A stretch of 64,000 nucleotides of DNA from Macrocystis pyrifera (Eukaryota > Sar > Phaeophyceae > Laminariales > Laminariaceae): assembly GCA_031763025.1 (NCBI GenBank), contig JASSKH010000006.1, positions 9,545,691 through 9,609,690 of the forward strand. Direction: 5' to 3'. The notes under the pieces are model-generated. The model had not been told where the DNA came from. It saw nothing but the letters and a program-made list of their open reading frames with translations, and ran no database searches. Shown here in pieces: positions 12,968-62,482 of this stretch. The position numbers were made by a program, and so were the translations under genes. Each line of letters begins with the position of its first letter. Position 1 is the first letter of the stretch.

Positions 12968-13014
12968 GGACTGCATCTTGGGTCGGCGTCCCTGGTGTAG
13001 ATGTCGGGGCACGA
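12968..13014 (-). CDS. Gene A putative 47-nt microexon (CPDI motif)
   Basis: Between a TAG acceptor and a GTGAGG donor; codes SCPDIYTRDADPRCS plus two bases. Same length, phase and cysteines as the gene B counterpart. Confidence 0.3.
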
Positions 13015-13639
13015 CTAGTGGTTTGGTCGGGAACGGCAAACATAGACGAGGTCGTGAAAGAAAGTACAAAACAGCGTTGTTAGGTAAACCCGATTGAAAT
13101 CAAAGCGTACCAAGAGCAACCGACGGAAGGGCGACACAAGAGGTTTATTTCGGCGACAAGACATGGACCTGGAAAGGAATCGGTGACAGTGTATCACAAC
13201 TACAGCAACGACGCACGTACAGGAGAGATTTACCGCGGTACTCGGGTAGTAGTGGCTTAACGTTCATTGTACCGTCCCGTATTGATTGTAAAGCCGACCT
13301 ACAGTACGATGCAGGTATTTTCATGCATGTCGCACAGCATGAAGGCACTTTTTCGGCCTGGGGCTCGCACAGTAGGCGGTCGACGCACACGGTTGGTTAT
13401 GCACATGCTACGATGGGAGTGCACCCGAAACTTGGCTGATGAGGCTCCTCGCTTGACGAGAGTATGTTTATCACCCTAAGCGTAGCTTTAACACAACCAG
13501 TACGCCCAACCCGATGACGGGATCACATACTAGGTTCTGACCGAACCGTACTGAACAATTTCACGATACTGGGTGGTTGCTCGCTTGAGAAGCCTTATCA
13601 CTCAGAAACTGTTTAGGTTCGAAAATGCTACAACAATTG

Positions 13640-13740
13640 TGGTCCCTCTGTCTGTAGCGTCGGTATGCACCAGCCAACAACGCCGGCACTATGAAGGCAA
13701 CCGACACCATGGCGCACACTGTCACAATGCTGAATCTCAT
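13640..13740 (-). CDS. Gene A putative membrane-anchor exon
   Basis: Starts after TTGTCACAG at ATG (MRFSIVTVCAM), then a hydrophobic helix of about 22 residues, then AYRRYRQRD, a basic tail. Position, phase and motif match gene B. The 3' end is uncertain. Confidence 0.5.
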
Positions 13741-16700
13741 CTGTGACAATCGATCCCACAGGCTCTATAGCGGATAACAGGCAGTACTCAACTGGTACTA
13801 TTGAAGGAACACCTATCGTAGCACCCTTCGTAAAACAAAACGATCGTGATATCCCCGAAAAGGCATAGACATACTACATCCACAGGCATGGGAAATACGT
13901 CCCCGTAAGGTCAATAACGGATCTGGAGAGCTCGAAGGAGTAGGTTCGGAGTTCGCCGACCGTTGCCACCGTTTCTGTCGTGAGCTTTCCTTCGTTCAGT
14001 ACAGCGGACTGCATCTCCAGATAATTAAATACAATGCCTCTTGCGTCTTGTAGAATTCTTCTGCACGAAACCACCACTGTAAATTTAGCACTCACTTCTG
14101 CCAGGTTGTTCTGGAAAATCAGCTCGCCGCCGTCCTGGGGGGGGTGAGAAGGAGCTCCCTTCGTCATTGTAGATGGAGCCCCCAGCGTAGGCCCGGTTGT
14201 TATTGAAGGTGTTGACGCCACCCAACCTGACGGCGATAGAGGGCATGCCGCACACATTTATGGACGGAACCAGATGGCCATGACGTTGAGCGGTGGCATA
14301 TTAGCTGAGATCAAACAGCACAACTGCTGTACAATAACGACCCACGGGCGTGTTGGACACAGCCGTACCAATGATTGTCTCTGATAGGTTTTGACGAGCG
14401 AAACGGCATGTGATCTACTGAAACTGCGGCGAATCTTTAGTGCCCCCAAAAGAAACACTTAATAGGTTTCTAACATTGGCTTAATTAGGAGGGCGAGCTA
14501 CCTTCCCTCTCACGTCTACTTCCTTCACTCGACACTTGATACCTTGGTTCGACTCTTGCTCTTTCTGAAACATGTCAACCATAACCTCGGTCCACTATTT
14601 TTCGTGACCGAGGCAACGCTGTCGGCAACGTCGCCGATGTTAACTCATGCCGACAGTTAGTCGGATACTGTTTCATGAGGCTGGCCTGTCCTGCGACGTT
14701 GGAGCCTCACATCGGGGCGCGCCCTTAAAAGCGATGAACCCAAAACAAAAACACGCTGATCGTTTGGGGTAGGACATTTTTCCGTGATCGGAACGACGTC
14801 TACCACTGCTGCCAATTCTTCCTCACGATAAGGTACCCATTTCTCCGTTGTAGATCGCACCACCGTCCCCGCCATCGCCGGAGCTGGAAGCGATGTTGCT
14901 CTGGAACAAGCTGCCGCCCATCAGATTTAGGGATCCGGTGCTGTAGATGGCTCCTCCTTTGTTCTACGAAGCAATATAGGCAACGTTGGGCAACGTCATT
15001 GACCGGAATGGTAAACGCCGAGATGTGATTAGAAAATAAATACACAACCAGGACGGCCGCATTCGAGTTTGAGGCAAAACGCCGCACCAGGTGGCAAATG
15101 TCCCAATATCAGTAGAGGAGAGTGTACATAAAGGCGGTAACACGAAGGGCACAGAAATCGCACGGCAGCAGGGAACTTACCTCGGAGCAGCTGTTTTCAG
15201 TGAAATTCGCAAAACCGTTGAACGTCATGGAGCCCGTTGGGTGAATGAAAACGGCACCTCCGTCCTGCCATGCGTGTGATAGCGAAAACGGCAGCACCAA
15301 GCGAAACCATCAAAAGGAGCAGACGATGGTGATGAGGTAAACGTTGCCCAACGTATTTTTTCCAACACCCCGTTCGTGTAGATAAAATCAAGCATTTGCC
15401 ACAGCCGCAACGTGCCTTAACACCCATCCTGCGATACGGAAGCGGAACTTCAAGGGAAAATATGTATCCATTAGCCGTGCCTACGAATAATAGAAGGCTC
15501 TAGGTCGGTATTGCACAACGTCATATTAGGTGCAAACGTACGCGTGTAACATCATGTGTTTGCGTCTGTACCAGGTGGCCTTCGCCGTGGCGGACTGATG
15601 CCAGGCGCTGCTCCGCGTATGCCAGCAAAAAAAAAAAAAAAAACATGTGGAGAAGTAGGTCAAGTATCAACATATTTAAAGCGACATTACTGCCAAGGGT
15701 TTGCACGTAAGAGTTGTAACTCGTGATTTACTGAACTGCTGTGTTGTCATTTCCGACAAGATGCCAAACAATGCATAGTATGCTCAACGCACAGCCAACG
15801 ACGTGTTCTCAATAAACAGCTTCGCTTCGAATGAACATTTTCAATGTGATACTTTATATTGCTGCTGTATATCGATGTGGCGACAGTGACATCGACATCC
15901 CCCTGTGACCGATGTATTTTGTACTCGACACGAATGTAGGTGGTTTGCGACTGGCCATCGTCTTCGACGCGCGCGTATCGTGCATGGCTGGGAGACATAT
16001 TATTGCACGAAAACACACGATGGAGAGATCCACGCCCCGGTGGTCTAATTGATAGTGGTTACCCTCGGATACTATTACTTACAGTGCTAGTGTCGAGGGT
16101 CCGCTTTTCCGCGTGGAACATTTAATTGTCAAATGACACCTATTGTTGGGATCCCTCACAATAACGTGGGCAGGCACAATTTGACGCGAGTCGACGAGGG
16201 GAAAAAGCGCTTAGCCCTTCACGCGAAAACAGTGCAAGGCACGTACCACAGTGGGGAGGGGGGACAGGAGCCTATATTGTGACCCCGGATCTGAGTTACG
16301 ACTGGGACGGAGAAGGAGCGAAAAGGGCTTTTAGATAATGAATGGGATGGGAAAAACATAGAAAATACCTGTTCAGAACCACAAGCCATGCGTCACTGCC
16401 ATTTAACCGTGAAACACTGTAGGTAAATTGGTGACGAGTTCGATTTTGCGCTCGTTATCTCCGTCAGGTAGTACGTCGACTGGACCATTCGCTGTCACTA
16501 TCCTCTAGTCCAGGGTGAATAACTACAGCTTTTTTGCTTGTCTTCAATGGAAGCACGTTACTCTTGGGTTGAGAGTTACGTGGACCTAGGCCATATCGCG
16601 CTGGTTTTGTGCAAAACAAAACAATGAGAGCAATATTTGCCTCCGACGGAGCCTTCAGCGAGACCCACCGCAGGCGGATCTAACTAGACCTCCGGAGTCG

Positions 16701-19700
16701 CCTCCAGGGGGCGCCTTTCCGCCAGGCGGAGGGATTATTGGGTCGCTTTGCTCTCCTGGCTTTCACGAAGCCTGCTTGCCGCCTTGGGGCTAGCTATTTG
16801 TCGTGAAATTATGCCGACCCATAGCCCGACCGTTTTCGTTTCTCGTAAATATCGAACATTCACGATAAACTGGAATATAGTACAGGTCGTTACCAGGGTA
16901 AATGGAAAATAAAAAAAATGGAGCGAAAGTCGCCACCATGTCCGAATCGAAAACAGACCATGTGCAAGCAGTTTGATATATTGGTAAAAACAATCTGTAT
17001 GGAACACGTTTTTTGTTTTTTTGTTCACTTCGTTTGGGTATACCGCGCCCCCTGCCTGGAGCTCAACCATAACGGCGGGGTGTCGACATGTGTTTTGTTT
17101 CGTGGAAACCCTTGGTCGCTAGCATTAGCCCTCACCGACGAGTCGTTGTCGGTGAACGACGAAGTGCCTTCAACGGCAATCTCGCCGGCGTTGAAGATGG
17201 CGCCGCCCTCCCCCTCGTCGTATCCCTGTCAAAAATTAGCAGCAGGTTACCACAGCATGCGAAAAATGCGACGCGCTTCATGGCGGTACTCTAATGCAGT
17301 ACAAGATGATACGTCCAAGGGGTTGCTTGGTCATGCCGACGACTCGGCGCAGTGTAAGGTTGCCATGCAACGGTGCAGTATCAATCCGGTTTAGAGGTGT
17401 GGGCGAAGTGACGAAAGGGGGCATACTAGGGGGCCTCCCGTTGACCAATGGAAACCTAGACATCTCTGCTGCCGTTCGGGAATCGTATTCGGCGAAAAAA
17501 CATCCTACTCTCCCGCAGATCACGTATAATGGTGTATATGTATCAGACCTTGCCACGACATCATCCAACAGGGCACATGTGCGTAGAGCGCCAATACCGA
17601 GTCAGGGCCAGCCGCCTTGTTCGCAGAGAAAGGAATCTATCGTCGGCGCCCGTTACCCTCTGCGCACGTAGGGCAGAGTCATAAACAGTGTCGATCATCA
17701 ATACCAACAAACTCATGACGTTTTGGTAAACGCTGTCTTACGGCTTTCCGGGGAAATAACAATACGCGTATGTATGCTATAAACATTTCAACAGGGAAAC
17801 ACTAAATAATTGAGTGGTTTGTCCCCAAAACCTAAGGGTTGAAGCCACGGACTATCTTATCCTCCCCCCATCTACAATTTTTTAGCATCTCTGTAATTTT
17901 TCAATGTTTTTTTAGTGGATCAAACCCCTCTGCCATTTTTTACCCACTGTGTTTGGACCCTCATCTGGTTCGCGGCTTAGAGTAGCGGGTGTCCGAGCTT
18001 GTGGTTTCATGCACGGCAGCTTGTGATTCTCTTTTCATTGGCCGTGCGCGTTTTCTCAAGACAGACCTACACGCCTGCTTTGAGATGCTGTGGTGGTCGC
18101 CAGTGGTCATAATTTGGGGTGCACTTAGTAAGACGTAAAAACAACCCCGCAGCTGAAGGTTCACGCTTCCCTTGCGGACAGCCGCGGTCTCCACAAGCAA
18201 TCACACATCGCGAAGTCAAGAAGTGCACCTGATGTGGCGTGTGATGACGGCGAGTGCATCAAGCACAGGTGATGACGGCGAGTGCATCAAGCACAGGCCG
18301 TAGACAGGTCAGAAATGAACCATGAGATGTTTTCGTTACTACGAAGTTGCGACCCAGTAGGACCAAAGTACTCGAAAGATCGCATAAATATCACTTGACG
18401 CGCGGGAACCTAGTACCATGAACACGCCGCCAATCAAACCGCGGCTTTCACCAGACGTTTGCTTGTCTCCTGGCGGATCGTTTGAACAAGTTACCAGGCG
18501 TGCCCATGTGGTTGCTTAGAAGAATATTTCGCACTTGTGAGAGGTAGGATTTTTTTGGGTCTGACAAAGACGAAACAAAACGTCAAAATGACACTGGAGA
18601 GCTGGAGTAATGTTAGTGTGCATGTTGTTCGTGAAATACTATAATCGCATAGAATTTTCAGGATTGTGGTTTCAACTCTCGTACAGTACGTACCTACTCT
18701 GTATCCGAGCCGTTCATCGTAGAATGTATTGACAGAAAACACTGCGCTAGTCTACTCGACAACAGACTCCTGAGAGGAGGGTTCTGTTGTCGAGCAGGCG
18801 CTGGCAGGAGTTTTGGCCGACATATGAAAACAACTAACGATAAAGAAAATAGACAACAGATTTGCAAACAATATCCGTACTTCAAAAATATGAATTTAGC
18901 GGAGAACGTGCCGCAAAACAATAATCCAGAGCTATCTCGCCCTTTTTGCCCCTGTTAGGCTCAGATAACTTACTCAGTCTCACGGGAAATATATGTTCGT
19001 GTCTCCGATTTGTTTCCGGACGCAACGACACTATTAATAGTACGCGTGTGATATAAGCCGGTTTCCTCGATGATCTAGTTCTGGTACTACAGTAAGCTCC
19101 CGCCCAGGAAATTTATTTTCTGACGCTATGAGCGTTAGTGTCGCAAGCTCGCAACTTCGTGTCCAAGAAAAACCTGTCGAGTAATTTTAGGCTGACTACG
19201 ACTGCTCTACAGAATACCCGATGCCCCCGCATACCCAATCCGGAGCGTTCATGTCGTTTTCGCCCTGAGATTGGTTCTGAAGTGCATACGTCAGATAGCG
19301 CTCGAATTGTACCTCATTGTATGCACCCCGAAAAGCTCCCAAATTCGACCATTGTAGCACCTCGAAGCCTAGATCGTCGGCCTTTGCTGACAACGCGCAG
19401 GCAACCAATCTGAACAACCGCACACTGGTGTGGACGAAACACTAAGCTCCTGTACCTGCTCTCTTCGAAGGCACGAACTACCCTCAGGCCCAGACGCAAC
19501 GTTCTAATATCGGCACAATTTCCACTCCTGATAAAACGTCAAATTCTGTTTGATACAGGGAATCCGGGGATTGGCGGTAGATACAATAACTCTTCGTGGC
19601 CTTACGTTGTCACTAACTCCAGCAATCCTTCCCCGAGGCCCGAAGAGGAGTGGCAATAGGGCTCCAATACAAACTATGTTGGATCAGTACGTACATCGGA

Positions 19701-22700
19701 TCTGTTCTTGGTCGCAGTGAGCTGTCCTTTGAACGTGATGGTCCCGACCCTGGCGTTGTAAATAGCACCACCACGCCCCTTGTTGTTGTCGTCTGTGGTG
19801 ACTGCGCGGTTTTCCGCAAATAGTACGTCGCCTTCGAAAACTAGTTCACCCTGGCAGGAAAGGGACAGCACGTTACCGACAGCGATGGGACGCAATGGCG
19901 CAATAATTCGTGACCTTCCACACGCGAAGCAGTAGCGCGTACAGGCTGGTACAGGCACCTGCACGAGGAGCCAATTATAAATCATGCGTCTTACCTTGTT
20001 GAAGACGGCTCCGCCGTCTCGCGGGATATAATTGTTTCTGAGGCCGCCGGTGTCTCCTACCATGATGGGGGGGAGGTCGGTAGAGATTACGCTGTTGCCG
20101 ATGAAGCTAGCCGAGCCCAAGAAGGTTGCCGACGAGCCTTTCTCCACGTACAACGCACCGCCCTTCGTCTCCTGCCATCCGAAGAGTAATAGGCGGTCGT
20201 GTTAGGTGTTGCCTCTCAACCTCGAACACTGTCCAACCGCGATGTCACCACAAACAACCCCAATCTTCCCCACAATGGTTCGTACATCGCCTATTTATCG
20301 TGCGAAGAGCTTAGATATTTTTCCCGTGGTCCATTCGTGACGAATGCGCCTACCCACGCCACGCGCTCTGAGCATTCGATTTGAATTATTATTGCCATAT
20401 TTTTAAAAGCTCACCATTGCGATTATTGTTCACGACTCAACTGCTAGTAGCATTGGAGGGTTACACAACTGCTTCCGGGGCAACCATAGGCACACATCGT
20501 GGAGGGTAACTGCATTCTACACCGTGACCAGTGGGGCTCCCTAGGATCACGGTGGTTGCTGCGGAGGGCTGAACATTTATTCTGGACCCTTGTGGGCACG
20601 AGGAGGGTGTTAAACAAGAAGGGCACATTGCGAAGTGGCCTGCACGGTATTCCCTCCGGCATCTGCAAGTATGTGGTTCTTGCAATTGGGGCGACCGGCT
20701 GGAATAGGATTTTTTGGTGCTGCAGTGCGTTTCTGGACAGTTTGTCTGGGTGTTTCTGTAGTTCACATGCACATACATTGTGGCAATCGAGTGTCGCACA
20801 AAATCACAACGACATCACAGTGCAGAGCAGCACAAACTGCTAACACAGCCGAACACAATTCACCAAAGCTCTCAACGCCCTACCCAACTAGAGTAGGCTG
20901 CTTGGTCGGTGTACGGTAGTGTACGCACGAGCTACGAGACCTACACCTGCAACACCCCCTCCCCCCCACCCTCAACTAGAGCAGGCTGCTTGGTCGGTGT
21001 ACGGTAGTGTACGCACGAGCTACGCGACCTACAGCTGCAACACCCCTCCCCCCCACCCCCCCCGAGAGCGGAGAACTCCTGGGTCTTGGTCTTGTTTCGG
21101 GGTTGAAGGTGGCGTTCTGTATGTCGTCTTGATTCAAGTCAATCGTCAGCAAAAAAATAATGCTTTCCGTGGAGTAGTTAGGGCCGCCAAGCACAACGTG
21201 TCTTTTGCTTGTGGGGCACTGTTCAAACCCCTCCCGTTCCAGCGGTCTTGCCGCCGTCAAGCAAAAGCAACCGGCTTCTGTCCCCCCTTCCAGGGTCAAG
21301 GGCTCGGCCCACGCTGCGCGCGGGGTGGGATGGTTGTCGGCTCGCCGCCCGTGGAGCCGCACCGGTCAAGCCCGCGGAGTCTCGATTTCTAGCGGCATAT
21401 TTCGCGCGGATGCCTGACATTTCGGCTCGGTTGTAGAGTGAGCAAATACTCAGACCACTGATATACACGTAGTTTGTGCCGACTATTCTGCACTTACTTA
21501 TCGAAAGCCGTTGCCCTTGGGTATTCGTTGACGCTTGTTGGTTCTTCGTTTTTTTCAGCAAACACGCTCATTCCCCGATGGGACCCAATGTCATGTTTTG
21601 CACGAAATTCTACTCAAATCCAATAGAGCTCATTTTTTGCTATTGAATTACAAAAAACAAAACTGCTCACCCTGGTAGGGCCCATCTTATCGAGGATTTA
21701 TTTTATTCATTCTGAATTTCATTTAATTTGCACTTGATTGGCCGAAGAGTGAAATACCATGCAGGCATCCTCAAGGCATATTATAAAATTTAAATTTCGG
21801 TGAACAGCCCTTTGGGATTTTTTTCGTGTGATTTTAGTTTCAATTTGGAATTTGGGAGTTGATCCGCCTTGATTTTGGCATGATCACGGTGGGGCAACGC
21901 CCCCGATGGAGTCTGGGGTGAGTATTGGCCGATTCGGTGACCACGTTCAAGGAAATAAGACGCGAACCTCAACGAGGGGCGACCAGAGCAAATACGCCGG
22001 CCCAAAAACACAGACTATACCACATCGTACCGCCTCAAAACAATCACGGCGGCCGTAAGCCCAGTTTTTCTGCTTGCTCGATCGACCAACAATCACGAAG
22101 AACGAGCAAACGAAAAATAAAAAACTGAGGATACGCTCGAGACCTCGATGGTTAAATCATCATCGTTGCTGTTCCGCGCGTGGCATTTTAGGGCTCGCTC
22201 TGCCCACCCAAGGCACCCTGAGAGCAATAGCTTCCTACTTTGCGCCACCAACAAGAAAAAGAGGCTGGCGGCGGCGCGCACACGACAACGCAAGCTTTCG
22301 CTCTCGTCTGCGCTCGTCGTTGTTTGTCGGCTGATCGTTGTGTGACTTGGTGCGATTTTCGGGTTATTCCGATTTCTTTCTTGTTTGACAATCTTTACAC
22401 CGTTTTCCGATCGGACAGAAACACCGTTTTTTGCGAAATCAAAATATAATTCTTTTTAAACCGTTTTCCGATAGGACACAAACACGTTTTTTTTTTTTTT
22501 TGCGAAATCAAATTAAAAAACGTGTTTGTGTCCTATCGGAAAACGGTGTAGATATTGTCAAACAAAAAAGACAAAATATATTTTGAGAATTTTAATTGGA
22601 TTTCGCAAAAATAAACGTGTTTGTGTCCTATCGGAAAACGGTGTAAAGATTGTCAAATAAAAAAGAATTCGGGATTACCTGGAATTAAAATCCATTGAAA

Positions 22701-23828: not shown

Positions 23829-24817
23829 ACAGCAGTGTAGTCTACGAGTACGTCTCCACGCAGAGGCGCGTACCGAGTGCGCTTCTCTTGGTCTCTAGGC
23901 CCGAGCCCGCGCCAGTCGACTCTAGTCTGGCCACGGAGGGACGCGCCGTCCGCGCGTCGGGCGCGAAGCAACGTCGCTATACAGCAGCTGTATCACCATC
24001 CAACTCATCGATCGTTCTGCTGGTGTTTGCTGTCGTGGATACCATCTTGAATTTAAAGAGCATGCCATTTTTCGATTTGAAAATCTGATGACCCAGGTCG
24101 TCGGATTTTGACGTGAAAATCCGACGACTTGGGTCATCGGATTCTCAAATCGAAACAATTCCGGTCGGATTTTGCATATTTGGACTCCATAATTATTAAG
24201 CAGGGTCATTCATTTTTGAGATCGAAAAATACAATTCCGAAATCTGAAGCTCGAAATCGAACCGCATAGGAAACGGCCTAAAGCCAAATATGTCAAAATC
24301 CGACGACCTGGGTCATCAGATTTTCAAGTCGAAACAATTCCGGTCGGATTTTGCATATTTGGACTGCATAATTATTAAGCAGGGTCACTCATTTTTGAGA
24401 TCGAAAAATACAATTCTGAAATCTGAAGCTCGAAATCGAACCGCATAGGAAACGGCATAAAGCCAAATATAATCTGAATGCTAATAAATACGACGTATAT
24501 ATTCGTGCGACTTCTTGCTGGCTGACCTGTTCCATGACGTCCTTGAATGTCACGGCGGGCTCAACGGTGAGGGTACCCAGAACTTTCAAAGCGAAGTTGG
24601 AAAACTCCACAGCCGCGTCAGACTTGAGGACCATGTTGTTGCGCACCCGGAAGCGAGTGTACGAGTTGCACTCGAAAGGGGTGCTGGTGATGGTGAGGGA
24701 AGTAACCGTGGTGTCGTCGATGTCCGCAAGCTCGGCGCACGACGCCACGTTGTAGTCGATGGCGTTGACTGAGGCCGCGACGATCACCAGCCCGAGCCCG
24801 ACGAAGGAAGTCTTCAT
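13640..24817 (-). CDS. Gene A: Pmp-like repeat cell-surface protein (multi-exon, frame break in exon 7)
   Basis: Paralogue of gene B with the same design. Exons: 24817-24527, 20171-19995, 19850-19695, 17225-17136, 15264-15181, 14963-14827, 14226-14096, then a membrane-anchor exon from 13740. All junctions are GT-AG and phases match gene B. Exons 1-6 are open. Exon 7 is 131 nt against 130 in gene B, with the extra base at a run of eight C, so frame is lost there unless the run is miscalled or variable. Intron 1 is 4.35 kb because it holds an 88-bp tandem duplication, a 1.8 kb foldback element and a 1 kb TIR repeat; in gene B it is 2.4 kb. It may be a recent pseudogene, a phase-variable gene or a sequencing error. 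Confidence 0.68.
14096..14226 (-). CDS. Gene A exon 7, Pmp-like repeats, +1 at poly-C
   Basis: 131 nt. In the phase set by exon 6 it reads LGGVNTFNNNRAYAGGSIYN and EGSSF, then leaves frame at the C8 run; GELIFQNNLAE lies in the next frame. Acceptor CCGTCAG, donor GTGAGT. Gene B exon 7 is 130 nt and open throughout. Confidence 0.7.
14827..14963 (-). CDS. Gene A exon 6, Pmp-like repeats
   Basis: 137 nt, ending in phase 2: KGGAIYSTGSLNLMGG, LFQSNIA, a Ser/Gly/Asp stretch and DGGAIYNGEMGTL. Acceptor TTCGTAG, donor GTGAGG. Confidence 0.75.
15181..15264 (-). CDS. Gene A exon 5, Pmp-like repeat
   Basis: 28 codons: DGGAVFIHPTGSMTFNGF then ANFTENSCSE. Acceptor CATGGCAG, donor GTAAGT. Confidence 0.76.
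17136..17225 (-). CDS. Gene A exon 4, Pmp-like repeat
   Basis: 30 codons: GEGGAIFNAGEIAVEG then SSFTDNDSS. Acceptor TTGACAG, donor GTGAGG. The 158-codon plus-strand ORF over this site is an antisense shadow. Confidence 0.76.
17226..19694 (-). other. Gene A intron 3
   Basis: GTACGT donor to TTTTTGACAG acceptor, 2.47 kb. Patchily alignable with gene B intron 3. Holds two direct 28-bp copies of GTGATGACGGCGAGTGCATC-type sequence at 18241-18296. Confidence 0.45.
18241..18296. repeat. 28-bp perfect tandem duplication
   Basis: Two identical units starting GTGATGACGGCGAG. Confidence 0.85.
19695..19850 (-). CDS. Gene A exon 3, Pmp-like repeats
   Basis: 52 codons, phase 0: GELVFEGDVLFAENRA, GRGGAIYNARVGTITF, LTATKNRSD. 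Acceptor CCTGCCAG, donor GTACGT. Nearly the same protein as gene B exon 3. Confidence 0.8.
19995..20171 (-). CDS. Gene A exon 2, Pmp-like repeats
   Basis: 59 codons, phase 0: KGGALYVEKGSSATF, FIGNSVIS, and DGGAVFNK at the end. Acceptor GATGGCAG, donor GTAAGA. Confidence 0.8.
20885..21060. repeat. 88-bp tandem duplication
   Basis: Two units beginning CAACTAGAG(T/C)AGGCTGC and ending in a C-rich tract, nearly identical, in gene A intron 1. Confidence 0.85.
21678..23456. mobile_element. 1.8 kb foldback element
   Basis: Inverted arms of about 700 bp (21678-22420 and 22740-23456) ending in GGGCCCATCTTA and its complement, flanked by TA on each side. The centre (22400-22760) has several copies, in both orientations, of CGTGTTTGTGTCCTATCGG. 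No transposase ORF. It sits in gene A intron 1 and is absent from gene B. Arms are diverged, so it is not recent. Confidence 0.65.
23470..24460. mobile_element. 1 kb TIR repeat R, copy 1
   Basis: Ends are inverted copies of CGTTTCCTATGC(A/G)GTTCGATTT. Homologous in opposite orientation to 47674-48667. Contains (CTG)11 at 23795-23827, a hairpin at about 24069-24150 and a 179-bp tandem duplication. No coding capacity. Lies in gene A intron 1, directly against the foldback element. Confidence 0.55.
23795..23827. repeat. (CTG)11 microsatellite
   Basis: Eleven perfect CTG units. The matching place in the other copy of repeat R (near 48340) has only two, so the tract expanded after the copies separated. 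Confidence 0.9.
24117..24470. repeat. 179-bp tandem duplication inside repeat R
   Basis: Units at 24117-24295 and 24296-24470 share AAAATCCGACGAC, CAATTCCGGTCGGATTTTGC and AACCGCATAGGAAACGGC with few differences. Confidence 0.8.
24527..24817 (-). CDS. Gene A exon 1, signal peptide and N-terminal domain
   Basis: 97 codons starting MKTSFVGLGLVIVAA, a clear signal peptide with likely cleavage after SVNA. The mature part has VASCAEL, FECNSYTRFRVRNN and VLGTLTVEP, all conserved in gene B. It ends at CAG|GTCAGC, the same donor as gene B. The exon is one codon shorter than in gene B. The plus-strand ORFs across it are antisense shadows. Confidence 0.8.
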
Positions 24818-44840: not shown

Positions 44841-44889
44841 TTTGCAGCATGCTGCCCTGGAACTGGGTTCTTATATCCCGGACCCGGAG

Positions 44890-45110: not shown

Positions 45111-45239
45111 GGCTATGGGGCATCGGCTGCTGTCGTTGATGGCAGCGCGCAAAGGTATAGGCCATGTACTTTTCCACCAATCCCCACCGCGTGAGAACCC
45201 TCCCCATGCCACACGCCCGGCCAGCGAGCTTTCGACGCC

Positions 45240-46020: not shown

Positions 46021-46054
46021 TTGTTCTGGGAGGAATTTCCCGCTTTCGACTGGT

Positions 46055-50783: not shown

Positions 50784-51112
50784 TCGCCGGTGGCTTCGTA
50801 GGTGGTCCGCTTGCCTATCAAGATCAATTTCGTGGGTTCAAATCTCACCGAGTGCATGCTCGTAGGGACTTTTTCTTGCATGAAAACCTGATTAGCGGAA
50901 AGCACGAGAGCGTGACACAGCTACATTCGATGAAAATCGACGAGCAGTGGAAATGCTGAACCCTACGCGAGACAAAATATAAAGGCACGTGCCGGGGGGG
51001 AGAAGCGACGACACCTTTGACCACGACTTGTCCAGAAGATCGTCGAGGGTATAACCTCCTACGAATGGGCTGGAAAATGAAAGTGATGATGGAAAAAAAA
51101 AAAAAAAAAAAA
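50784..51112 (+). mobile_element. tRNA-derived SINE, copy 3
   Basis: Head with GGTGGCTTCGTAGGTGG (A box) and GGGTTCAAATCTCACC (B box, the best preserved of the four), ending in a run of about 20 A. Confidence 0.75.
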
Positions 51113-51830: not shown

Positions 51831-53151
51831 GGCGTTGAGTGTCAGTGCGGCCGCTGTCAGACCGCCCCCCTAGATGCACACGTATGCCGCCCCCACCATA
51901 TTGGAGTTCCCCAAGACTGCTGCGATCGTTCGGGGCAGTAGTAAGTTTCACAGGCTCAAGGTGTTTATCGAGTAGGCGCCTTGACCCACGATCACCCATT
52001 TTGTGTGAGCAAATCGTTCGACGTATTATTCTGTATCATCAGTATGGTTTTCATCCCTCTTGCTAGTCGTCATTCTTGACCTCGCCGGCTGCTTGGCGCA
52101 GTCATCCTTTTTTTCGTCTCGTCGTGTACCACTTCGTTATGAAATATTCCGCCTCATCGACGACCCCATGGTACCACTTCCTAACCTCCTTAATCGTCGT
52201 GGGTCACACAACGATATTCACTCTGGACAACAAAACATCAGTTTTCGTGGATCCCTCATTGCCCCCAAACATATTGAACTCGCCTGCTAGACAATGGGTC
52301 AGGCCATTTTGTGGGCAGCCTAGACCTGCATTATCCTCACCAGGTATAATCAATGACACCAATTGCACACGTACGGCCCTCGCAAAGAGAGGTCGGGCAA
52401 TACGGACGGTCGTGTCGAAGAATGTGCGTTCATGGGATCGTTGACACTCAAAGTGGTCGGTGTATTGTCAGCGCTTGACGCCAATGAGATATGGCTGTTC
52501 ATAGAACATCGACTACTACTTCAGTAGTCATATTACATGCATCGTCGAGATACCTCTTGATGTTATATGTACTCCTTGATGGGGACCCGGTGCCTGCTAT
52601 TATACGTGTATCAATTAACAAAAACAAATGGTACCTGATGTATATCAAAGCCGCCGTCATCTCAGCATCACGCGGCATGTACAAACGAAAAAAAAAACGA
52701 GAACTATGATGGTGTTTGGGGCCATTCAAACCTGGCCTTTACTTCACTTCGTGTATACATCTACTGAGCCACAAACAAGGTGCATCAACTGGCGTTGCCG
52801 ACGTTTCGAAAGCCGGTCCCTCACTTAAGCTCTATCGGTAATGAGCGCCCTAGTCATTGCAACACAGCGTATACTTGAAAGCATACTTGAAACGCTGTAC
52901 TGTACTGAGCCCCCCCTACGTCGCCAGGACACCAGCAGCACATCCACCTCCGATCCACCCCATCAACTGGAACACGCCCCATGCGGGAGTCTGCTCCCAG
53001 CGTGCTGAGCAAGAAACATGTCTCATGGTCCGCCGGCATTCGTCGAAAACAAGGAAAAACAACCCGCCTAAATTTCTTGGTTGTTGCCGTCGTCGTAGGA
53101 ACCTCCGTTAATACACGGTTCATGCCCGTCCAATATCATAGCGTTCTTCAC
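51831..53151 (-). other. Probable 3' part of the gene B locus
   Basis: Alignable in patches with 12160-12960 downstream of gene A. No exon fixed apart from the CPDI microexon. Confidence 0.35.
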
Positions 53152-53198
53152 GGGCTGCACCTTGGGTCCGCGTCGCTTGTGAAGATGTCGGGGCACCA
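53152..53198 (-). CDS. Gene B putative 47-nt microexon (CPDI motif)
   Basis: Lies between an AG acceptor and a GTGAAG donor and codes WCPDIFTSDADPRCS plus two bases. Gene A has a 47-nt counterpart with the same cysteines and the same phase. If real it belongs to the part of the protein after the membrane anchor. It could also be chance conservation inside a young duplication. Confidence 0.3.
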
Positions 53199-53799: not shown

Positions 53800-53898
53800 G
53801 GTCTCCCTAGAGTGGTGTCGGTATGCGCTTGACACAATTACCGGGACTATTGCGGCAACAGGCACTACCCCGGACGCTACCACACCGGTTAAACCCAT
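53800..53898 (-). CDS. Gene B putative membrane-anchor exon
   Basis: Starts after TTGGCACAG with MGLTGVVASG and a hydrophobic segment of about 22 residues rich in Val/Ala/Ile, followed by AYRHHSRE, a basic stop-transfer-like tail. The phase continues from exon 7. Gene A has an equivalent exon at the same distance (about 360 nt). The 3' end is uncertain; a GTAGTA donor soon after the basic residues is possible. Inferred to be a single transmembrane helix. Confidence 0.5.
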
Positions 53899-56800
53899 CT
53901 GTGCCAAGAGGTTCCGCAGGTACCACAGCGACCAACCGGTGTTACTCAATCGGCACTTTGTAGGGAGCACCTAATGCAGCACCCCTCGTAAGAATAGGTC
54001 TGACCCACCCCTAAACGGTTTAATACATAGATCATATCCCGAAGCATGGGAACGACACACCCGGTCACGTCAATTGTAGATCTTGCAGATTCCAGTTTAC
54101 AGCGAAAAGGTTCGGCCTGCTGACGGGATGCTCATGGTTCTGCCGACAGCTTCCGTTGAGCAAAGAAATACCAATCTATAGTACACGTTTGGGCTTGTTG
54201 CCTCCAGTAGCGTATTTCATTAGAAAGCGGAACCATCACTCTAAACATCCGGGCACCCACATCAGCCTCGTTATCCTGGAAAATGAGCTCGCCATCGCCT
54301 TGGGGGGGGGAGAACGAGCTCCCTTCCTCATTGTAGATGGCGCCCCCAGATTCAGCCAGGTTGCGATCGAAGGTGTTTGTGCCACGCAACCTGATGGAGA
54401 GAGGGCATGCCGAATATATTTTGTAGACAGCAGCAGACGACTATGACGTTAAACGGTGGCATAATAGTCGCGACCGAACAGTACCACTACCCTACCAAAC
54501 GGTGACATACCTGTTGCGATTGAATGGTACAACTACTCTACGGCTAACAACCCCGTGCTATTACGGGGGTCCATAGTTAATGGGACAGATTTTGTGAGTA
54601 AAAATAGGTAAATATATAGTTTTTATGTATACCATAGGTCCTATTAACTATGGACCCCCGTAATAGTATGATGTAACCGTACAAAATGTCCGTCACTGGT
54701 GGGTTTTGGAAATCGAAACAGCGTGGGATCTACCTAGACTGCGGCGGATCTGTAGGGCCCTTAATAGGAGCATCGAAAGGGTTTCGCATTGGTTAAGAAT
54801 GGAGAGCGGGCTGCCTTCCGTCTAAAGTCTGCTTCTCTTCCTCATAAGTAGATGCCCTAGTTCGAGTCTTGTTCCTCATGAAACGTGGCAACCCTGGCCT
54901 CGACCCACTGTTTCTCGTGATCGAGGCAACCCCGTCGGCGACATCGAATAAAAAACTCGTGCCGACGCTTGATTGGGTTCTGTTTCGCGAGGTTGGCGTG
55001 AGCTGCGGTGATTGGGCCCCCTATTGGCGCGCACCCCTGAAGTAAATGACCGAACAACACGCTGACCAGATACAATGGGAAAGTTTTCCGTGACCGGAAC
55101 AAAGTCTACCCCTGCTGCTGCCCATTATTCCTCACGTTAAGGTACCACGTGCTGCGTTGTAGATCCCACCGCCATCCCCACCACCGTCGGAGCCGGAAGC
55201 GTTGTTGATCTTGAACAAGCTACCGCCCATCAGATTCACTGATCCAATGGTGTGGATTGCTCCTCCTCTTCGCTGCCATACAATGAAAAGTAAACAATTA
55301 AATGGAACGGCAAACGCCACAGCCTCAGGACGGGGCAACTCGGGTATGCGGGCGACTAGTACAGATCACCAGTAGCTCAATACCGGAACGTACAGGATGT
55401 CTAAACAGGCGGTAACGTCGAGGGCACAGAAACCGCTCACATGCTAGATAAAACTTACATCGTTGCAGAGGTTGTCATCGAAATTCGCAAAATCGTTGAA
55501 CGTTATTGTGCCCCTTCGTGCAACGAAAATGGCACCTCCGTTCTGCCGTGCGCGTCAAAGAGGAAGCATCAGCACGAACGAAAAAGAAGTAGACAACGAA
55601 CAGACGGTTTTGTGTTAAACAGTGCACAATATTCTTCCGGCAACTTGGTCGTGTGAATGGCAACCAACGTTCGTCAAAGTCTCGACGTGACTCCAAAGGA
55701 GGCGTGTGGTACGGAAGCACTAAAATCCAATGTATACACGGTTTCCGGTTACCGCGCCTACATGTAACGTATCGTTTAAGGTATCATAACGCTATGTCTG
55801 GTTACGGCAGTAGGTGCGAACAAACACAACAATGAAGGTTTCGTTTATATAGCACATCAAAGCCCAATGTCCCAGAACCTCGGGAAATCCAATCAGTGAA
55901 AGAGGTGACTACAAGTTCACCACACAGTCACGGTCAAAACTGAAGGTCATAATGTGACATGGTTTGAGGATATTGCGACCTCTAGTCACACCCCTAACCC
56001 CGGATGTACTGTACACCTGGCGTGCGCCGTATCCTGCATCGCTCCTTGTCAGCCTAGCAACCGTAATGAATGTGAAAACGGCAATATTGATATCATTTCA
56101 TGGTTGGATCATCGTGATCTCGTTTCTTTTTGTACTTTGCCCATCTCACAGTTTGTACTGCCTCGCTTGTTCGGGGAGATCTATAATCGAAACAAAAACC
56201 GGGATACTTCGCATTGAGAATGCCTATTTACGTTGGCCGTTCTTTGTTACGGAAGCTGGGATTGTCATTTTACATTGTGTTTAGGATAGAACATGAGATA
56301 CGTTCTCTATATCATACCAGCTATACCCTCCTCGTGTATAATAGCCTCACGTCGCTGCGGTGGGTTCAAACACAACCGATAGACAGATAGGTCGTGTTGG
56401 AACGTCGACCCCGACGCACAAGCACCGCATCTATATATATAATCCCACCCGTAAAAAACCAGCCTAGCATCGTCGTGTCGAAGAAAACCCCCAATGGGGT
56501 TTTGAGAAAATACTGAAGCCTCACGAAAAACCGAAACGTGCTACAATCGTTTCAAACATGGGTAAGTCAGAAATGGTTTGGCGAAACAAATGCAACCTCA
56601 AATCGAAAAGAAGCGGAAACGGATCGACACTAGCCACCATGTCGTAAGTCAAAACAAACTAGCTGGTTGGGTGCTTTGTCAGGAAGTGAAGAACTAACCA
56701 TCCAATGGACTAAATATATTTACACGTTTTCAGTATACCCCCATTCTTCCTGTCATGGGGTTGAAACACACGTAGGGATTCGAAACTGTTGCAGCCTCGG

Positions 56801-59800
56801 TCGATAAAAGCGGTCCTCACCGAAGCCCTGTTGTCGAAGAATGACGACGTCCCATCCACGACAATTTCGCCGGCGTTGAAGATGCTGCCGCCCTCCCCGC
56901 TGTCGTGCCCCTGTCATATATCAGCATGAAATGTAGGTAAGTGGAACGCGACTCAGGGCGGTATGCGAGGAGAGCTCGTGCAAGGGGGGAAACCAGCCAG
57001 CGGCACGCCTCAAACCCCGCTCTCAAACCCTGTTGCGCAGTTATGAGGCAAGCTCGCGGTGGAGGGTAGGAGTTTTTTCAGTACACTCTTTACACACATC
57101 ATAGAGGCCAATCGTATCGGAGGCCTCTTCTCCTGCTGGAAACATTTCTCTTCATCGTGAAATCAATCAGGAAAGTCAAGGAAAAATAGGGGAACCTGAA
57201 ATTTTCCTTTTGCCTGCGCGTTTCCGGAGTGTAGAGCTGCGTTGCGAGGGAGTCTGATGAATGAGAGGGTGCGGCCTAGGAACTTGAAATGATGGTAGGC
57301 GACAAAGACCTGTGACAACACAAGGATCGACTCGTACACGTGAGTGAGTGTAGCCGGTGAGAATACTGGTGCGGCTTACTCCTGCGTGGTCTATTTTAGT
57401 GGAGTCTCTGACAATTAGGTGCTGGCTCCACTTCTTCTATGTGTGCCAAAGGCCTGTCGCTCTTCCTCAACAATCATGGTATAGGGCGCGCGTGCAACAC
57501 GCTGACGCGTTCGACAGGTGGCGTATAAGCAAACAAGTCCCGCCCATCACTTGCTGTAGTTTCAAGTAGAAGCGAAGGCGAAGTGACGGAGGGCATTCGG
57601 TGGTCTGCCGCAGACCACTGCGACCCTAAACGTCTCTGCCGCGTTTTGGCAATAGTATTATCGGAAGTCACCCATTTTCCGCAGATAACTTGCCGGTATA
57701 TATACCAGTATAATATCAGACCTTACCAGAGAACATCCAACATGGTAGGTAGATGTGCCTGGAGAACGATGTGTTACCAACTGCCTCGTTCACCAAGAAA
57801 ATAAGCTATCGTCGAGATTCGTAATCTTCGCATCCAGGGCAGTTTCACGAATAGTGTCGACCATCAATTAGTTAATAAACTCGTGACCTTTTGGCAAAAG
57901 GCTATCTCTCAGCTGTGATGCGAAAACAAAAACCAGTATGGGCATTTCAACAGGGAAAGGTCTGCATTGCTTGGCAGGAGCATACAGTAGTTGTATCATA
58001 TGGCTACCTCAACGATAATCCCACTGGTACACCTATCGATTGCTAGTCTCCTGCTTGGTGGGTGTTTATTGCAAGCAAACCAGGGAAACATCACAAACAC
58101 ACAAGGTTAGGAAACAAACCTGGATTATTTTTCATTGCCGCATGGTTACTGAAAGTTTGAAATACGAGTACGAATCTTGTTTGCAAACCTCTCACGTACT
58201 CTGTTCCCCAATCGTAGGCACAATTTGTCAAAAATACTACTCTCCTCGCGTCTCGACAAATATTCATGAGAAATCCACAGTATTAGTAACACCCTCGGGT
58301 GTATGATATCGAGTAAGCGCAAGTAGGCCTTCATCCAAATTTGCGAACAATTTGGAAATAGATATGGACGACTTTTGAAGCAATATCCATATTTCGAACG
58401 CCAGAAACTGTGCCTCAAACTACAAGTATCAAGACTACAGAGGTTGTTTCGCCACGTCTAAGTGCCAAAAGCTTGCTTGAGTACCTCCCGAGTAAGATAA
58501 ACAATGTAATAGATTGACACCAAACGTTTGCTCAATGACGTTTTGACATGTGATGTAGACCGACATCCGGGGCGCACCTCTATTTTCGGACTGTGATGGC
58601 GTGTGAGGAGCTACAGCTATATACGCAAGTAGTCGAGTGCAAACATTCAGTTAGCGGTTGCGCTGAGCAAAATTTTGATTTGAACACCAAGGTTCTTCTA
58701 GTCGCTACCACCGAAGCATCTCAACGTCGAGGTGTACAGTAGGTCTCTATGGACAAGGCTGCAGAAATCCAATTTGAAGATATACACAAGTTGCTGTGGA
58801 AGAAATGCTAGACTCCGACACCCGCCTTGTTTTAAGGCAAGAACTAGTCGAGGGTCTAAACGCAACGTGTCTAAATACCGGCAGAATGTTACTGTTTCGG
58901 TCAAGTGACTGGACATCTTAGCTACTCGGATCCCGTGGGTGAGGAGGATGGGGGGTATATTTAATTATCTGTTGCCTTGAGATCTCGCGAGAATCACACG
59001 TTGCCTCTCGGCGGGGCGATGAGGAGTTGCAACGCATCGTAGTGGATGTGACAATCGGGGTCCAGCATAAAGTACGTTGCATCAGTACATACTTGTGCAA
59101 AGTTGTCGTTCGCGGTGAGCTGTCCATTGAACGTGATGGTTCCGGTCCTTGAGTTGTAGATAGCACCACCTCGCCCCCTGTTGTCATCGTTTGTGGTCCG
59201 TGCCCGGTTTCCCTCGAATAGCGCGTCGCCTTCGAACACCAGCTCACCCTGGCAAGAGAGGCATCGCATGTTGCAGACAGAGACGATATGCCATGGTGCA
59301 TGACTTCGTGACCTTGCTCAAGCCACGCAGCAAAGTGTACACTGTTTCGGGCACTCCCAGTAATGTTTACAGCAAAGTGTACAGACACTGATTCGGGCAC
59401 TCCCAATAATGTTAAAGGATTCATCTCACCCTGTTGAAAACGACTCCTCCGTGGCGCGGGATGTAGTTGTTTCTGGAGCCGCCGGTGTTTTCATCAACAA
59501 TGGGAGGGAGTTCGGTTACGATGACGCTATTGTCGATGAAGGTAGCCGTGCCCAAGAAGGTTGCCGACGAGTCCCTCCTCACGTTCAATACACCGCCGCT
59601 TACTTCCTGCCAACAGAAGAGATATAAACGCTCGTGTCAAAGGTGTTGGCTCCCGACCTGTAACATCGTCCCGCCGCGGTATTGAGGCGTCATTTTACCA
59701 AACCCCGTACAATATATGGTTGACCGGGAACCCACGGCAGGCACTCTCGATTCGGACATATTAAGAGACCCTTCGGGTTCCTGGCTTGTACAAACTCGCA

Positions 59801-62265
59801 GGTTAGAAGGGCGCCCTCGTGTCTTGCAGTTGGTGTGTGCTGCCTCCGCATCAAACACAGCATTAGTTCTTCTGGCTGCTGGAAAACTCGTGGTCCTGGA
59901 AATGCAACTCGGGAGCGGGATAATTTCGGTTCAGCACCATTCAGTCGACGATCGTCCTTGTTGCTTTGGAATGATATTCCGTTCATATCGTTTCGAAGAC
60001 GACCCGACGTGGTAGCCTGAGTAATCCGATACATCCATGTGATTGAGAATGGCCCACGTTAGTTTTTTTTTTTTTTTATCCTCCGGCGGATTGGTAAAAA
60101 TAAAGCTTAAGCTCACCACACTTCCACGTTCCCAATTTCGTGTCGTGTGTCAATTGCCCACGTTAGTGTTCTTCTCCCTTTGACCATGTCGGCTCTTGCA
60201 GATGTAGAACCACCCAGGCAGGAATCTCTATTACCATCATACCTGTTTTTAAGTTCGCTAGTCCCGCCCCCCTGCCTTCTCGCGAGTCTACAAGTCTACG
60301 AGTATGTATTCTGTGTTTTGGCATGTTCGTGCGTACTCTCGCGCAAAATCGCTTTTCAGTTTAAACACGTTTTAATCGAATGGCACCTTAGTCTAAAAAA
60401 TGGCGATCTTTTCAATGCAATTCATCCCGATCTTCATCACTGGCTTGAACTCTCTAAACGATAAGAAGCAATCGAAGAGGCACATGTACGCACGATCAAG
60501 TCGCAATTAAACAGTGATCAGGGTGACTGCTGTGCCTCGAACGGATACCAAACCACTGCTGTTACAACCGTGCATCTGAAACATATTGGACCGGTTGTAA
60601 GACTCTTGAACCAAGTGACGGAACTTGTGATATCAGCCGGCGACCTTTCAAGAGGAGTTCAAACAGCTCCAACTATACACACGTGCATATATTTTCACTC
60701 GCTTCAACATGCAGCAACTTTCCCGGTGGAGGACTTCACCGCTCAGTCGTAACGGGTGGAAGGCGTGAACCCGCTCCCGCCTATGTGCTAATATACGCGG
60801 GGCAATCGCACGCCATGCCCGTGGAATACTTTGATCCCACAAACCTCATCGGCCTCATAACTTCGAGACTAGGACATAATATCCAGGGCATTCCTCCGGA
60901 CTCTGTTGCGACTCCTCGACCATTCCGATAGATTCAGGTACGCCGGGATTTGACGGTACTGTTTCCATGGGACTTGGTCATTGCGGGACTCCCGGGAACG
61001 GGCTTGAGCCGCCACGCCATTAAGAATCGATGTTGCAGCTGGCTGCGTACGTTTCTGATGTATAAAAACCGTCCAAGAAAAACATTCCCAATTTTTCTAT
61101 TACGGGGGTCCATAGTTAATAGGACCTTTGGTAAACATAAAAACCTATATATTTACATATTTTTACAACCAAACTTTGGTCCCGTTAACTATGGACCCCC
61201 GTAATATTAGGTTTTCGTTTCCTACAGCCAAAGCGCGAGTACACGTGGGTTGAAGCTTGCGTTAGCTGCATACAGCACGGATGCAACCAAGACGGTGAGT
61301 GTGCGGGTCTCACTATTATAACAGAAGAAACGAGGAATAATCGGCTGGGGGTAGAGAGCTCTGCATCCATTGGCGTGTGTACCACAACGGCTGCAAATGA
61401 TTGCGCTCAGATAGGGAGGGGGGAAAATCCCCAAGACCTTGCAAAAGTAAGAAAGAGAAATTTAACTGCAGTCGCGTGCCGTGGTGGCTACAGTAGGAAT
61501 GAGACGGGCCGACGAGCGCCACAATCGAACTCGGGAACTGGTGCGTGTAAATACGTACCCTGGTCACAGTCCTTCATTCTACGAAGAGCGTATTTATTTG
61601 CATCTATTTCCGTTTGTGCGGTATTCAACCGTTCTCTATTCACGGGATTCCGGATATATATACCCTGAATTGTGCGGGACATGCTTAGTTTGTGTAGGAT
61701 ATTTTTAGGTTGTGGGACCCGTTTATTATGCGGAAAAAGGAAATTACAATTTTTAAGGGCGCCCGGGAAAGGGGCATTTAAGAATTTGCGCGGGATGCAG
61801 TTGTGCGTGAGCAAGATTTTCCAGTCATCACGGGACCACGGGAGCATGTCGCGGGAGAAATTCCAAGGATTGCCCAGATGATGCAACAACTCGCGCAGCC
61901 CAATTCGACTAGCTAAACGTCTTTCTGACAACAGAAATACATTCACTATTATAGTTCGGCGTCTGGCTGACCTGGTCTGTGACGTCCTGGAATGTGACGT
62001 CCGGCTCCACGGTGAGGGTACCCAGCACCCTCAGTGCGAGGTTGGAAAACACCACAGGCGAGTCGGACTTGATAACCAGGTCGTTGCGAACCCGGAAGCG
62101 CGTGTACGAGTCGCACACGAACGGACTGCTGGTAATTGTGATGGAGGTAACAGAGGAATCGTCGATATCCCTAAGCTCTGTGCACGAGGCGACATCGTAC
62201 TCGACGCCATTCACGGCTGTGGCCGCGACCAGCGCTACTCCGATCCCTAAGAAGGCTGCTTTCAT
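53800..62265 (-). CDS. Gene B: Pmp-like repeat cell-surface protein (multi-exon)
   Basis: Spliced minus-strand gene model. Exons run 62265-61972, 59606-59430, 59248-59093, 56910-56821, 55542-55459, 55272-55136, 54390-54261, then a membrane-anchor exon starting at 53898. Every junction is GT-AG and the phases agree (0,0,0,0,0,2,0), giving about 356 residues before the anchor. Exon 1 codes a signal peptide; exons 2-7 carry repeated GGA(I/V)(Y/F) and FxxN motifs typical of the chlamydial Pmp repeat, which is predicted to form a parallel beta-helix. Exon lengths match gene A almost perfectly, which is the main support. No stop or frame break was seen in exons 1-7, so this is the best candidate for a working copy. 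Likely role is extracellular or surface-anchored; no ligand or reaction can be inferred. Exons 3' of the anchor and additional small exons may be missing from the model. Confidence 0.72.
54261..54390 (-). CDS. Gene B exon 7, Pmp-like repeats with poly-C tract
   Basis: 130 nt, entering in phase 2 and leaving in phase 0. Motifs: NTFDRNLAESGGAIYNEEGS, a run of nine C coding SPPQ, then GELIFQDNEAD. Acceptor TCCATCAG, donor GTGGGT (weaker than the GTGAGT in gene A). The C run is where gene A differs by one base. Confidence 0.75.
54561..54663. mobile_element. MITE (GGTCC variant) in gene B intron 6
   Basis: 103 bp, TA-flanked, full TIRs. Absent from the same intron of gene A, so it inserted after the duplication. 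Confidence 0.8.
55136..55272 (-). CDS. Gene B exon 6, Pmp-like repeats with Gly-rich stretch
   Basis: 137 nt, ending in phase 2. Contains RRGGAIHTIGSVNLMGG, FKINNAS, a Ser/Gly/Asp-rich stretch, then GGGIYNAARGTL. Acceptor ATGGCAG, donor GTGAGG. Same length and same phase as gene A exon 6. Confidence 0.76.
55459..55542 (-). CDS. Gene B exon 5, Pmp-like repeat
   Basis: 28 codons, phase 0: NGGAIFVARRGTITFNDF followed by ANFDDN and a cysteine. Acceptor CACGGCAG, donor GTAAGT. Same length as gene A exon 5. Confidence 0.75.
56821..56910 (-). CDS. Gene B exon 4, Pmp-like repeat
   Basis: 30 codons, phase 0, one repeat: GEGGSIFNAGEIVVDG followed by SSFFDNRAS. Acceptor ATGACAG, donor GTGAGG. Same length as gene A exon 4. 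Confidence 0.75.
59093..59248 (-). CDS. Gene B exon 3, Pmp-like repeats
   Basis: 52 codons, phase 0. Contains GELVFEGDALFEGNRA, then GRGGAIYNSRTGTITF and a closing LTANDNFAQ. Acceptor CTTGCCAG, donor GTATGT. Same 156 nt length as gene A exon 3, and the two proteins align without a gap. Confidence 0.8.
59430..59606 (-). CDS. Gene B exon 2, Pmp-like repeats
   Basis: 59 codons, phase 0 on both sides. Motifs in order: SGGVLNV, ATFIDNS, and HGGVVFNR at the end. Acceptor TTGGCAG, donor GTGAGA. Length is identical to gene A exon 2. Confidence 0.78.
60063..60155 (-). mobile_element. 3' fragment of the TAA-tailed retroposon
   Basis: Inverse of 8779-8876 with a T run of about 15 at the tail end, in gene B intron 1. 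5' truncated, as expected for retroposition. Confidence 0.6.
61100..61204. mobile_element. MITE (GGTCC variant) in gene B intron 1
   Basis: 105 bp, TA-flanked, well preserved termini. Confidence 0.8.
61972..62265 (-). CDS. Gene B exon 1, signal peptide and N-terminal domain
   Basis: Codes 98 residues from MKAAFLGIGV, a short basic start followed by a hydrophobic core ending near AVNG: a secretory signal peptide. The mature part has two cysteines (VASC and FVCDSYTRF) and ends at a CAG|GTCAGC donor. An in-frame ATG further upstream (62487) is rejected because it would bury the signal peptide and because gene A starts at the matching MK. Confidence 0.8.
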
Positions 62266-62482
62266 GCTGGCTGCTACAGAGAAGCAACCCGTTTCGAGGT
62301 AAAACGACGAAGCTGTAGACGTCAAGTGGAAGCGAACACCGCTGTTTGTGTCGTGCTGTGGGAGGGGGAGTTTCTGTGAAGAGTTGGGGGTGAAGTGTGG
62401 AAGGGGTATCTCTCGCACAAGATACCCCGGCCCGACAGCCGAGCTTTCTGCGGGCAAGTGAATCGTGGGCGACGGGCACTCA
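62266..62482 (-). promoter_or_regulatory. Conserved 5' flank of gene B (putative promoter and 5' UTR)
   Basis: Counterpart of the gene A flank. Shared blocks include GGTAAAACGACGA, GTGGAAGCGAACAC and GGGGTATCTCTCGCACAA. Similarity stops at the same GGGCGACGGGCAC motif. Confidence 0.4.

Follow-up and report, generated by a model that had tools for sequence, protein, structure and literature searches.

The window analysed here, 64,000 nucleotides (nt) of the giant kelp Macrocystis pyrifera (positions 9545691-9609690 of contig JASSKH010000006.1, hereafter C220), carries two genes on its minus strand, A (positions 24817-12964) and B (62265-53148), both encoding repeats of the chlamydial Pmp type. 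Comparison of the two halves of the window with each other by BLAST resolved the genes into colinear blocks, confirming them as paralogues; a preliminary description, made from the letters of this stretch, had already recognised a pair of duplicated multi-exon genes. That description counted six exons per gene. Alignment of the paralogues together with their splice sites, by which the exon borders were set, yields eight, exon 7 and a short C-terminal exon 8 with a Cys pair having been missed or misassigned.

Exon 1 of gene B (61972..62265) encodes a signal peptide and an N-terminal domain with a Cys pair (C28, C51), and is followed by the donor sequence GTCAGC. Exon 2 (59430..59606, 177 nt, phase 0) contains the first repeat unit, or rung, a long loop and the beginning of the second rung. 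Then come exon 3 (59093..59248, 156 nt, phase 0), exons 4 (56821..56910, 90 nt) and 5 (55459..55542, 84 nt), each holding a single repeat in phase 0, exon 6 (55136..55272, 137 nt), which ends in phase 2, and exon 7 (54261..54390, 130 nt). Exon 8 (53148..53198, 51 nt) encodes WCPDIFTSDADPRCSP, bearing the C-terminal Cys pair, and then a stop. The corresponding exons of gene A lie at 24527..24817 (exon 1, signal peptide and N-terminal domain), 19995..20171 (exon 2, 177 nt), 19695..19850 (exon 3, 156 nt), 17136..17225 (exon 4, 90 nt), 15181..15264 (exon 5, 84 nt), 14827..14963 (exon 6, 137 nt), 14096..14226 (exon 7, 131 nt) and 12964..13014 (exon 8, 51 nt); the last, read in its own frame, gives SCPDIYTRDADPRCSP followed by a stop. 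All of these exons are on the minus strand.

The internal exon lengths reported previously (177, 156, 90, 84 and 137 nt) thus hold for exons 2 to 6 of both genes, as does the agreement of phases between introns of very different size: intron 1, for example, is 4355 nt long in A as against 2365 nt in B, and all introns are in phase 0 except intron 6, which is in phase 2. Identity of length between A and B is confined to exons 2-6 and 8 (exon 1 is 291 nt long in A and 294 nt in B); elsewhere in the family lengths vary, and among intact copies they do so by multiples of three. The 14 introns of the two genes are all bounded by GT and AG and would presumably be spliced out in the cell. Joined in this way, the exons of B form one intact frame of 372 residues. 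In A, a run of C within exon 7 carries one extra base relative to B, which breaks the reading frame there. Since the assembly, described as that of a haploid female gametophyte (PMC10498591), was built from PacBio and Hi-C data, the frameshift may be either a true lesion or an assembly error. Intron 2 of A (19851-19994, minus strand) is 144 nt long, a multiple of three, and free of in-frame stops, so that its retention would preserve the frame; intron 2 of c1, one of the additional copies considered below, is likewise stop-free but 154 nt long.

The array, its repeats and its loops

Within 255 kb comprising the window and the surrounding DNA, eight copies were found to possess all eight exons (c1, c2, A, B, c7, c9, c11 and c13); exon 8 of c2 and of c13 was located by means of a Cys-motif pattern, which matched once in each. 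All eight copies terminate in a similar short exon in which a Cys pair is followed by a stop. Donors are GT at 55 of 56 sites, the single deviation being intron 6 of c7, and acceptors are AG at 56 of 56; boundaries were picked at homologous positions, making this agreement partly one of construction, which is not so for the lengths and frames. A single open frame runs through all eight exons in five copies (c1, c2, B, c9 and c13), predicting proteins of 370-383 residues, of which B and c9 show 90% identity to each other. With a query set of 15 exon peptides from A and B (exon 7 of A excluded), a tblastn search of the 255 kb gave 190 matches at E<=0.01, self-matches included, compared with 0, 0 and 1 in three shuffled versions.

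Purifying selection between copies is visible in the pattern of coding differences. Over exons 1-6, A and B differ at 61, 55 and 95 first, second and third codon positions, respectively, corresponding to a nonsynonymous divergence (dN) of 0.216 and a synonymous divergence (dS) of 0.466; across the 15 pairs that can be formed among six copies (A being represented by exons 1-6 only), dN/dS ranges from 0.25 to 0.52. A third, degenerate copy occupies positions 2356..11433 of the window, again on the minus strand. Its pieces follow the family order: piece 1 at 11433-11305 (E 1e-14), piece 2 at 7111-7055 (E 0.023), a weak exon-4-like piece at 4143-4096 (E 0.074), piece 5 at 3147-3070 (E 6e-4), piece 6 at 2809-2699 (E 2e-9) and piece 7 at 2469-2356 (E 2e-5); pieces 5, 6 and 7 are interrupted by stops. 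Further fragments of the family are found on C220 at 9625692-9626190, 9648382, 9682433 and 9715144.

The assignment of the repeats to the Pmp type was upheld by searches with profile hidden Markov models. The Pfam family Chlam_PMP (PF02415, cut-off 20.6 bits) scores 45.6 bits in B and 60 bits in A up to the frameshift, and the NCBIfam model POMP_repeat (TIGR01376, cut-off 15) scores 26.3 bits in B; curated cut-offs were applied to B in both libraries and to A in Pfam. Either family matches all five intact copies at E<=0.1. Protein B contains eight GGxx tetrapeptides, seven FxxN motifs and one variant of the latter. A published rung model places a protruding loop between FxxN and GGAI (PMC10715098). 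Introns 1, 3, 4, 5 and 7 of B each fall either in the stretch separating an FxxN (or variant FxxN) from the GGAI that follows or past the last FxxN; introns 2 and 6 interrupt rungs. A preference of introns for loops was considered and rejected as a significant pattern (4 of 6 internal introns in loops, p 0.069).

Mean pairwise identity among the five intact copies falls from 0.727 at motif residues to 0.577 at the remaining rung columns and 0.383 in loops; between loops (71 columns) and non-motif rung columns (117) the difference has a permutation p of 1.5e-4. This faster divergence fits the idea of exposed loops on a conserved scaffold. At the codon level, dN/dS is 0.65 for loops and 0.37 for whole rungs, with a bootstrap probability of 0.03 that the loop value does not exceed the rung value (95 usable of 120 resamplings).

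As noted in the preliminary description, both A and B open with a hydrophobic segment resembling a signal peptide. The membrane anchor that it also proposed could not be sustained, the candidate stretch falling inside intron 7. This hydrophobic stretch, at 13651..13740 in A (probably the one taken for an anchor) and at 53809..53898 in B, both on the minus strand, was judged not to be an exon: it is preceded by AG in two of the four copies compared (CAG in both A and B, but CGG in c7 and CAT in c9), and its A-B differences are spread over the codon positions (12/10/12, against 61/55/95 in exons 1-6). Six proteins were examined for a shared hydrophobic segment downstream from the signal peptide and none was found, nor is there a C-terminal one in the five intact copies. 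Together with the conserved last exon and its Cys pair, the lack of a shared segment suggests that the proteins are probably secreted.

A structural model of exon 1 (that of B, with exon 1 of A) is mostly beta, with nine strands and a mean predicted local distance difference test score (pLDDT) of 73.5. In a comparison of this model with the Protein Data Bank (PDB), the four highest query template-modelling (TM) scores, 0.44-0.47 and non-significant, belong to chains of PL6 alginate lyase and pectate lyase, which we take to be beta-helices; we regard the likeness as a weak hint. AlphaFold2 has been described as overpredicting beta-solenoids (PMC11795689). Searched by sequence, the PDB returned only Scone-E and Scone-R entries (E 0.0086 and 0.099), taken as chance matches. 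No enzyme or barrel family was matched in Pfam or NCBIfam, where the other sub-threshold names were a domain of unknown function, an HU-like domain and rhombotarget A. Viral or prokaryotic relatives were sought with two short patterns from the N-terminal domain, which are uninformative on Pmp repeats generally; 6 and 2 stretches matched a pattern and none was confirmed as a relative.

Relatives elsewhere in the genome

A search of the genome (537,376,219 bases in 223 contigs) with protein B produced at least 104 matches at E<=0.001 among the best 110 of 267 candidates; other Pmp-like families account for some of these. With exon 1 of c2 as query, 20 places were found, 13 of them at E<=1.2e-29; twelve of these strong matches cluster on C220 (9.10-9.80 Mb) and the remaining one is on C196. 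With a 1900-bp query, C196:7322659-7324551 proved 99% identical to C220:9703001-9704900, and on the strength of this identity the C196 copy region is taken to be either a recent segmental duplication or assembly redundancy. Divergent relatives of exon 1 occur twice on C212 and once on C216; in all three, a GT donor is found 18 nt past a shared Phe codon.

Contig C203 harbours, between 11.14 and 11.86 Mb, an array of homologues each contained in a single frame. A piece of one of them gives 39 matches, and 11 of those on C203 span at least 290 of its 305 residues free of stops. Three C203 loci (L027, L028 and L030) were read. A profile made from the five intact copies of the eight-exon family matches them with E values of 7.1e-27 to 5.5e-28 in a database consisting of these three sequences, covering positions 84-288, 11-289 and 67-288, respectively, of the 375 in the profile. 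In a global alignment, the N-terminal Cys pair is common to L028 and L030 and the C-terminal Cys tail is present in L027 and L030; the register of the last rungs is less clear, and one rung is apparently missing. Among the matches of the B search, one on C203 spans residues 26-364 and another 178-372. Taken singly, the piece of L027 scores 16.9 bits and that of L030 17.8 bits with Chlam_PMP, slightly short of the cut-off, and L028 does not match it. Because the single-frame array aligns with the eight-exon family, seven-intron and intronless homologues coexist in the kelp. Introns may have been gained in the one array, or the other may derive from retroposition; the side-by-side occurrence of the two forms would allow such an event to be dated within the family. 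Open frames of 743-1204 residues at C126:2.91-3.25 Mb match B more weakly, and are probably longer single-exon relatives.

Comparison with known systems and possible roles

With the chlamydial Pmp proteins (PF02415, TIGR01376) the kelp genes have in common the GGAI/FxxN repeats, scoring above cut-off in B with both libraries and in A with Pfam, and the order of motif and loop set out in the rung model (PMC10715098). Unlike them, they have seven introns, a signal peptide and Cys pairs at both ends; in the 372 residues of B, which end 19 residues past the last FxxN, neither an autotransporter barrel nor any other Pmp domain was matched. The Pmp-like proteins of Trichomonas likewise constitute an expanded eukaryotic family of Pmp-repeat proteins, which traffic through the endoplasmic reticulum (ER); by the account in PMC6701047 they often have one transmembrane domain and endocytic motifs, features that are common and not universal, whereas the kelp genes have seven introns and encode no C-terminal transmembrane segment. 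Pmp repeats beyond Chlamydia are listed by Pfam for >100 species and are known from Trichomonas, archaea and other bacteria (PMC10715098), and a kelp unigene bearing the same annotation name as the present genes, with measured expression, appears in PMC10573767. Hence the earlier suggestion that such a eukaryotic family was undescribed stands in part. No description of the array itself was found among the literature matches listed, in which brown-algal Pmp proteins were represented by one paper; eukaryotic Pmp-repeat families were already known, with a kelp transcript annotation in print. With its complete gene structures, clean end caps and numerous paralogues, and lacking the chlamydial barrel, the array constitutes a defined family of Pmp-repeat genes in a eukaryote and permits the role of the FxxN/GGAI scaffold to be asked about in a multicellular alga.

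We think it probable that A and B are members of a tandem array of eight-exon kelp genes encoding secreted right-handed beta-helices with variable loops that bind partners. The signal peptide would export the protein from the cell. A mostly-beta N-terminal cap with its Cys pair would be followed by about eight GGAI...FxxN rungs, folded as a beta-helix by analogy with published Pmp predictions, and by the tail with the C-terminal Cys pair, the two pairs probably capping the helix at its ends. The rungs would serve as a rigid scaffold from which the loops between FxxN and GGAI protrude on one face, where their binding partners might be microbes, other cells of the kelp or polymers of the cell wall. 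The array would expand by duplication, leaving copies in both orientations, and lose members through frameshifts; new specificities would come from mutation, insertion and deletion in the loops of whole-gene copies and not from the exchange of exons. A role in adhesion or recognition at the kelp wall or surface is, we think, the most likely one, a purely structural role in the wall being its main rival. Pmp-repeat proteins of chlamydiae and trichomonads are reported to aid adhesion (PMC6701047).

A number of observations count against secreted, partner-binding helices. The Trichomonas Pmp protein tested in the same report was found chiefly in the ER and Golgi and not at the surface (PMC6701047). 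A direct search of the kelp genome with the 19-column PF02415 profile returned no match among the best 150 of 355 candidates, and none of the 45 Foldseek matches of the exon-1 model to the PDB is significant (best E 1.4). In A, B, c7 and c9, the four copies compared of the eight, the hydrophobic stretch of intron 7 keeps a common frame, as expected of an anchor; c1 and c2 are fairly hydrophobic near residue 68 (Kyte-Doolittle 1.68 and 1.91), a feature not seen in the other four proteins. Positive selection in loops was looked for and is not shown, the mean loop dN/dS remaining below 1 and a single pair of 15, c9-c13, reaching 1.14; the excess of loop over rung dN/dS is marginal. Finally, three of the eight complete copies (A, c7 and c11) are frameshifted and several other copies are fragments; therefore a large part of the array may be inactive.

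This last point invites the view that most members of the array are pseudogenes, that one gene or a handful remain active, and that the array does not serve diversification. The degenerate copy in the window and the four additional fragment sites on C220 speak in its favour. Five complete copies nevertheless keep an open frame over eight exons, purifying selection is seen between copies, and the frameshifts, of one or two bases each, may be sequence errors in a PacBio-based assembly; on balance we find this view unlikely. That the proteins are structural parts of the kelp extracellular matrix with no part in recognition, the loops diverging under relaxed constraint, is possible and would accord with a loop dN/dS of 0.65 and with the lack of an evident anchor. 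It is nonetheless rather doubtful, as large tandem arrays with changes in loop length are more usual in recognition or adhesion families. Beta-helix enzymes acting on a cell-wall polysaccharide such as alginate or a pectin-like polymer, as opposed to binders, would be in keeping with the lyase chains that head the TM-score ranking of the exon-1 model; with none of those matches significant and no enzyme family matched in Pfam or NCBIfam, an enzymatic function seems highly improbable.

The preliminary description saw in the whole-repeat, phase-0 exons a gene structure suited to exon shuffling, for which brown algae offer a precedent. In their ROCO genes, exons encoding leucine-rich repeats (LRR) are reported to be reshuffled and alternatively spliced (PMC11378527). 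The kelp genes could accordingly be modular receptors of the LRR-ROCO or NB-ARC-TPR kind, their exons, each corresponding to one repeat, being duplicated, lost or alternatively spliced; exons 4 and 5 hold one repeat each, and 5 of the 7 introns are in phase 0 at loop positions. Against this, the same exons occur in the same order in 8/8 complete copies, introns 2 and 6 cut within rungs, and the placement of introns in loops does not reach significance. Moreover, when the eight repeats of each intact copy were compared between copies, 153 of 160 comparisons gave the positional counterpart as the best match. From this positional match it follows that the repeats diverged earlier than the gene copies, with no sign of exchange since. 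Germline shuffling was thus rejected for the copies read, and a family of modular receptors assembled in this way is most unlikely. The resemblance to LRR-ROCO genes extends to repeat units on separate exons; ROCO exons, as characterised in PMC11378527, are 72 bp long, in phase 2 and reshuffled, whereas the kelp Pmp genes have a fixed order and phase 0 at all introns but one. This suggests that brown algae hold fixed-order repeat exons beside reshuffled ROCO ones. Introns 1, 3, 4, 5 and 7 lie in loops, and exons 4 and 5 each amount to a complete rung in phase, so that if either of these two exons were skipped the helix would lose one rung and stay unbroken. A single gene could then yield beta-helices of varied length and loops, adding a somatically variable recognition or adhesion repertoire to the germline array, a prospect that we consider quite unlikely.

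Other sequence features of the window

No Rfam family reached its gathering score in the window, and a scan with ARAGORN (bacterial code) revealed no tRNA gene. The segment at 41659-47499 (plus strand), between A and B, is likely a retroelement; an integrase-core match at 43713-44891 scores 28.4 bits, below the cut-off of 32.6, and is flanked by 100-nt direct repeats 84% alike. Outside the window, intron 1 of c11 contains a dispersed repeat (L047:9698-9900) that is 200 bp or longer and recurs at 96-98% identity in at least 37 other places among the best 40 of 3062 candidates. Insertions of dispersed repeats may explain the variable lengths of the introns. Gene B is flanked by inverted repeats of 194 and 108 nt (50784-51082 and 63227-63524), 87-90% complementary, and the sequence at 9573-9903 is 81% like that at 63214-63534. 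Direct repeats 85-97% alike, with spacings of about 3.17 and 3.65 kb as in a tandem duplication, occupy positions 32823-39582 in a strongly AT-skewed stretch, and at 29026-29837 a CCCGA-rich unit of 40-41 nt forms tandem arrays.

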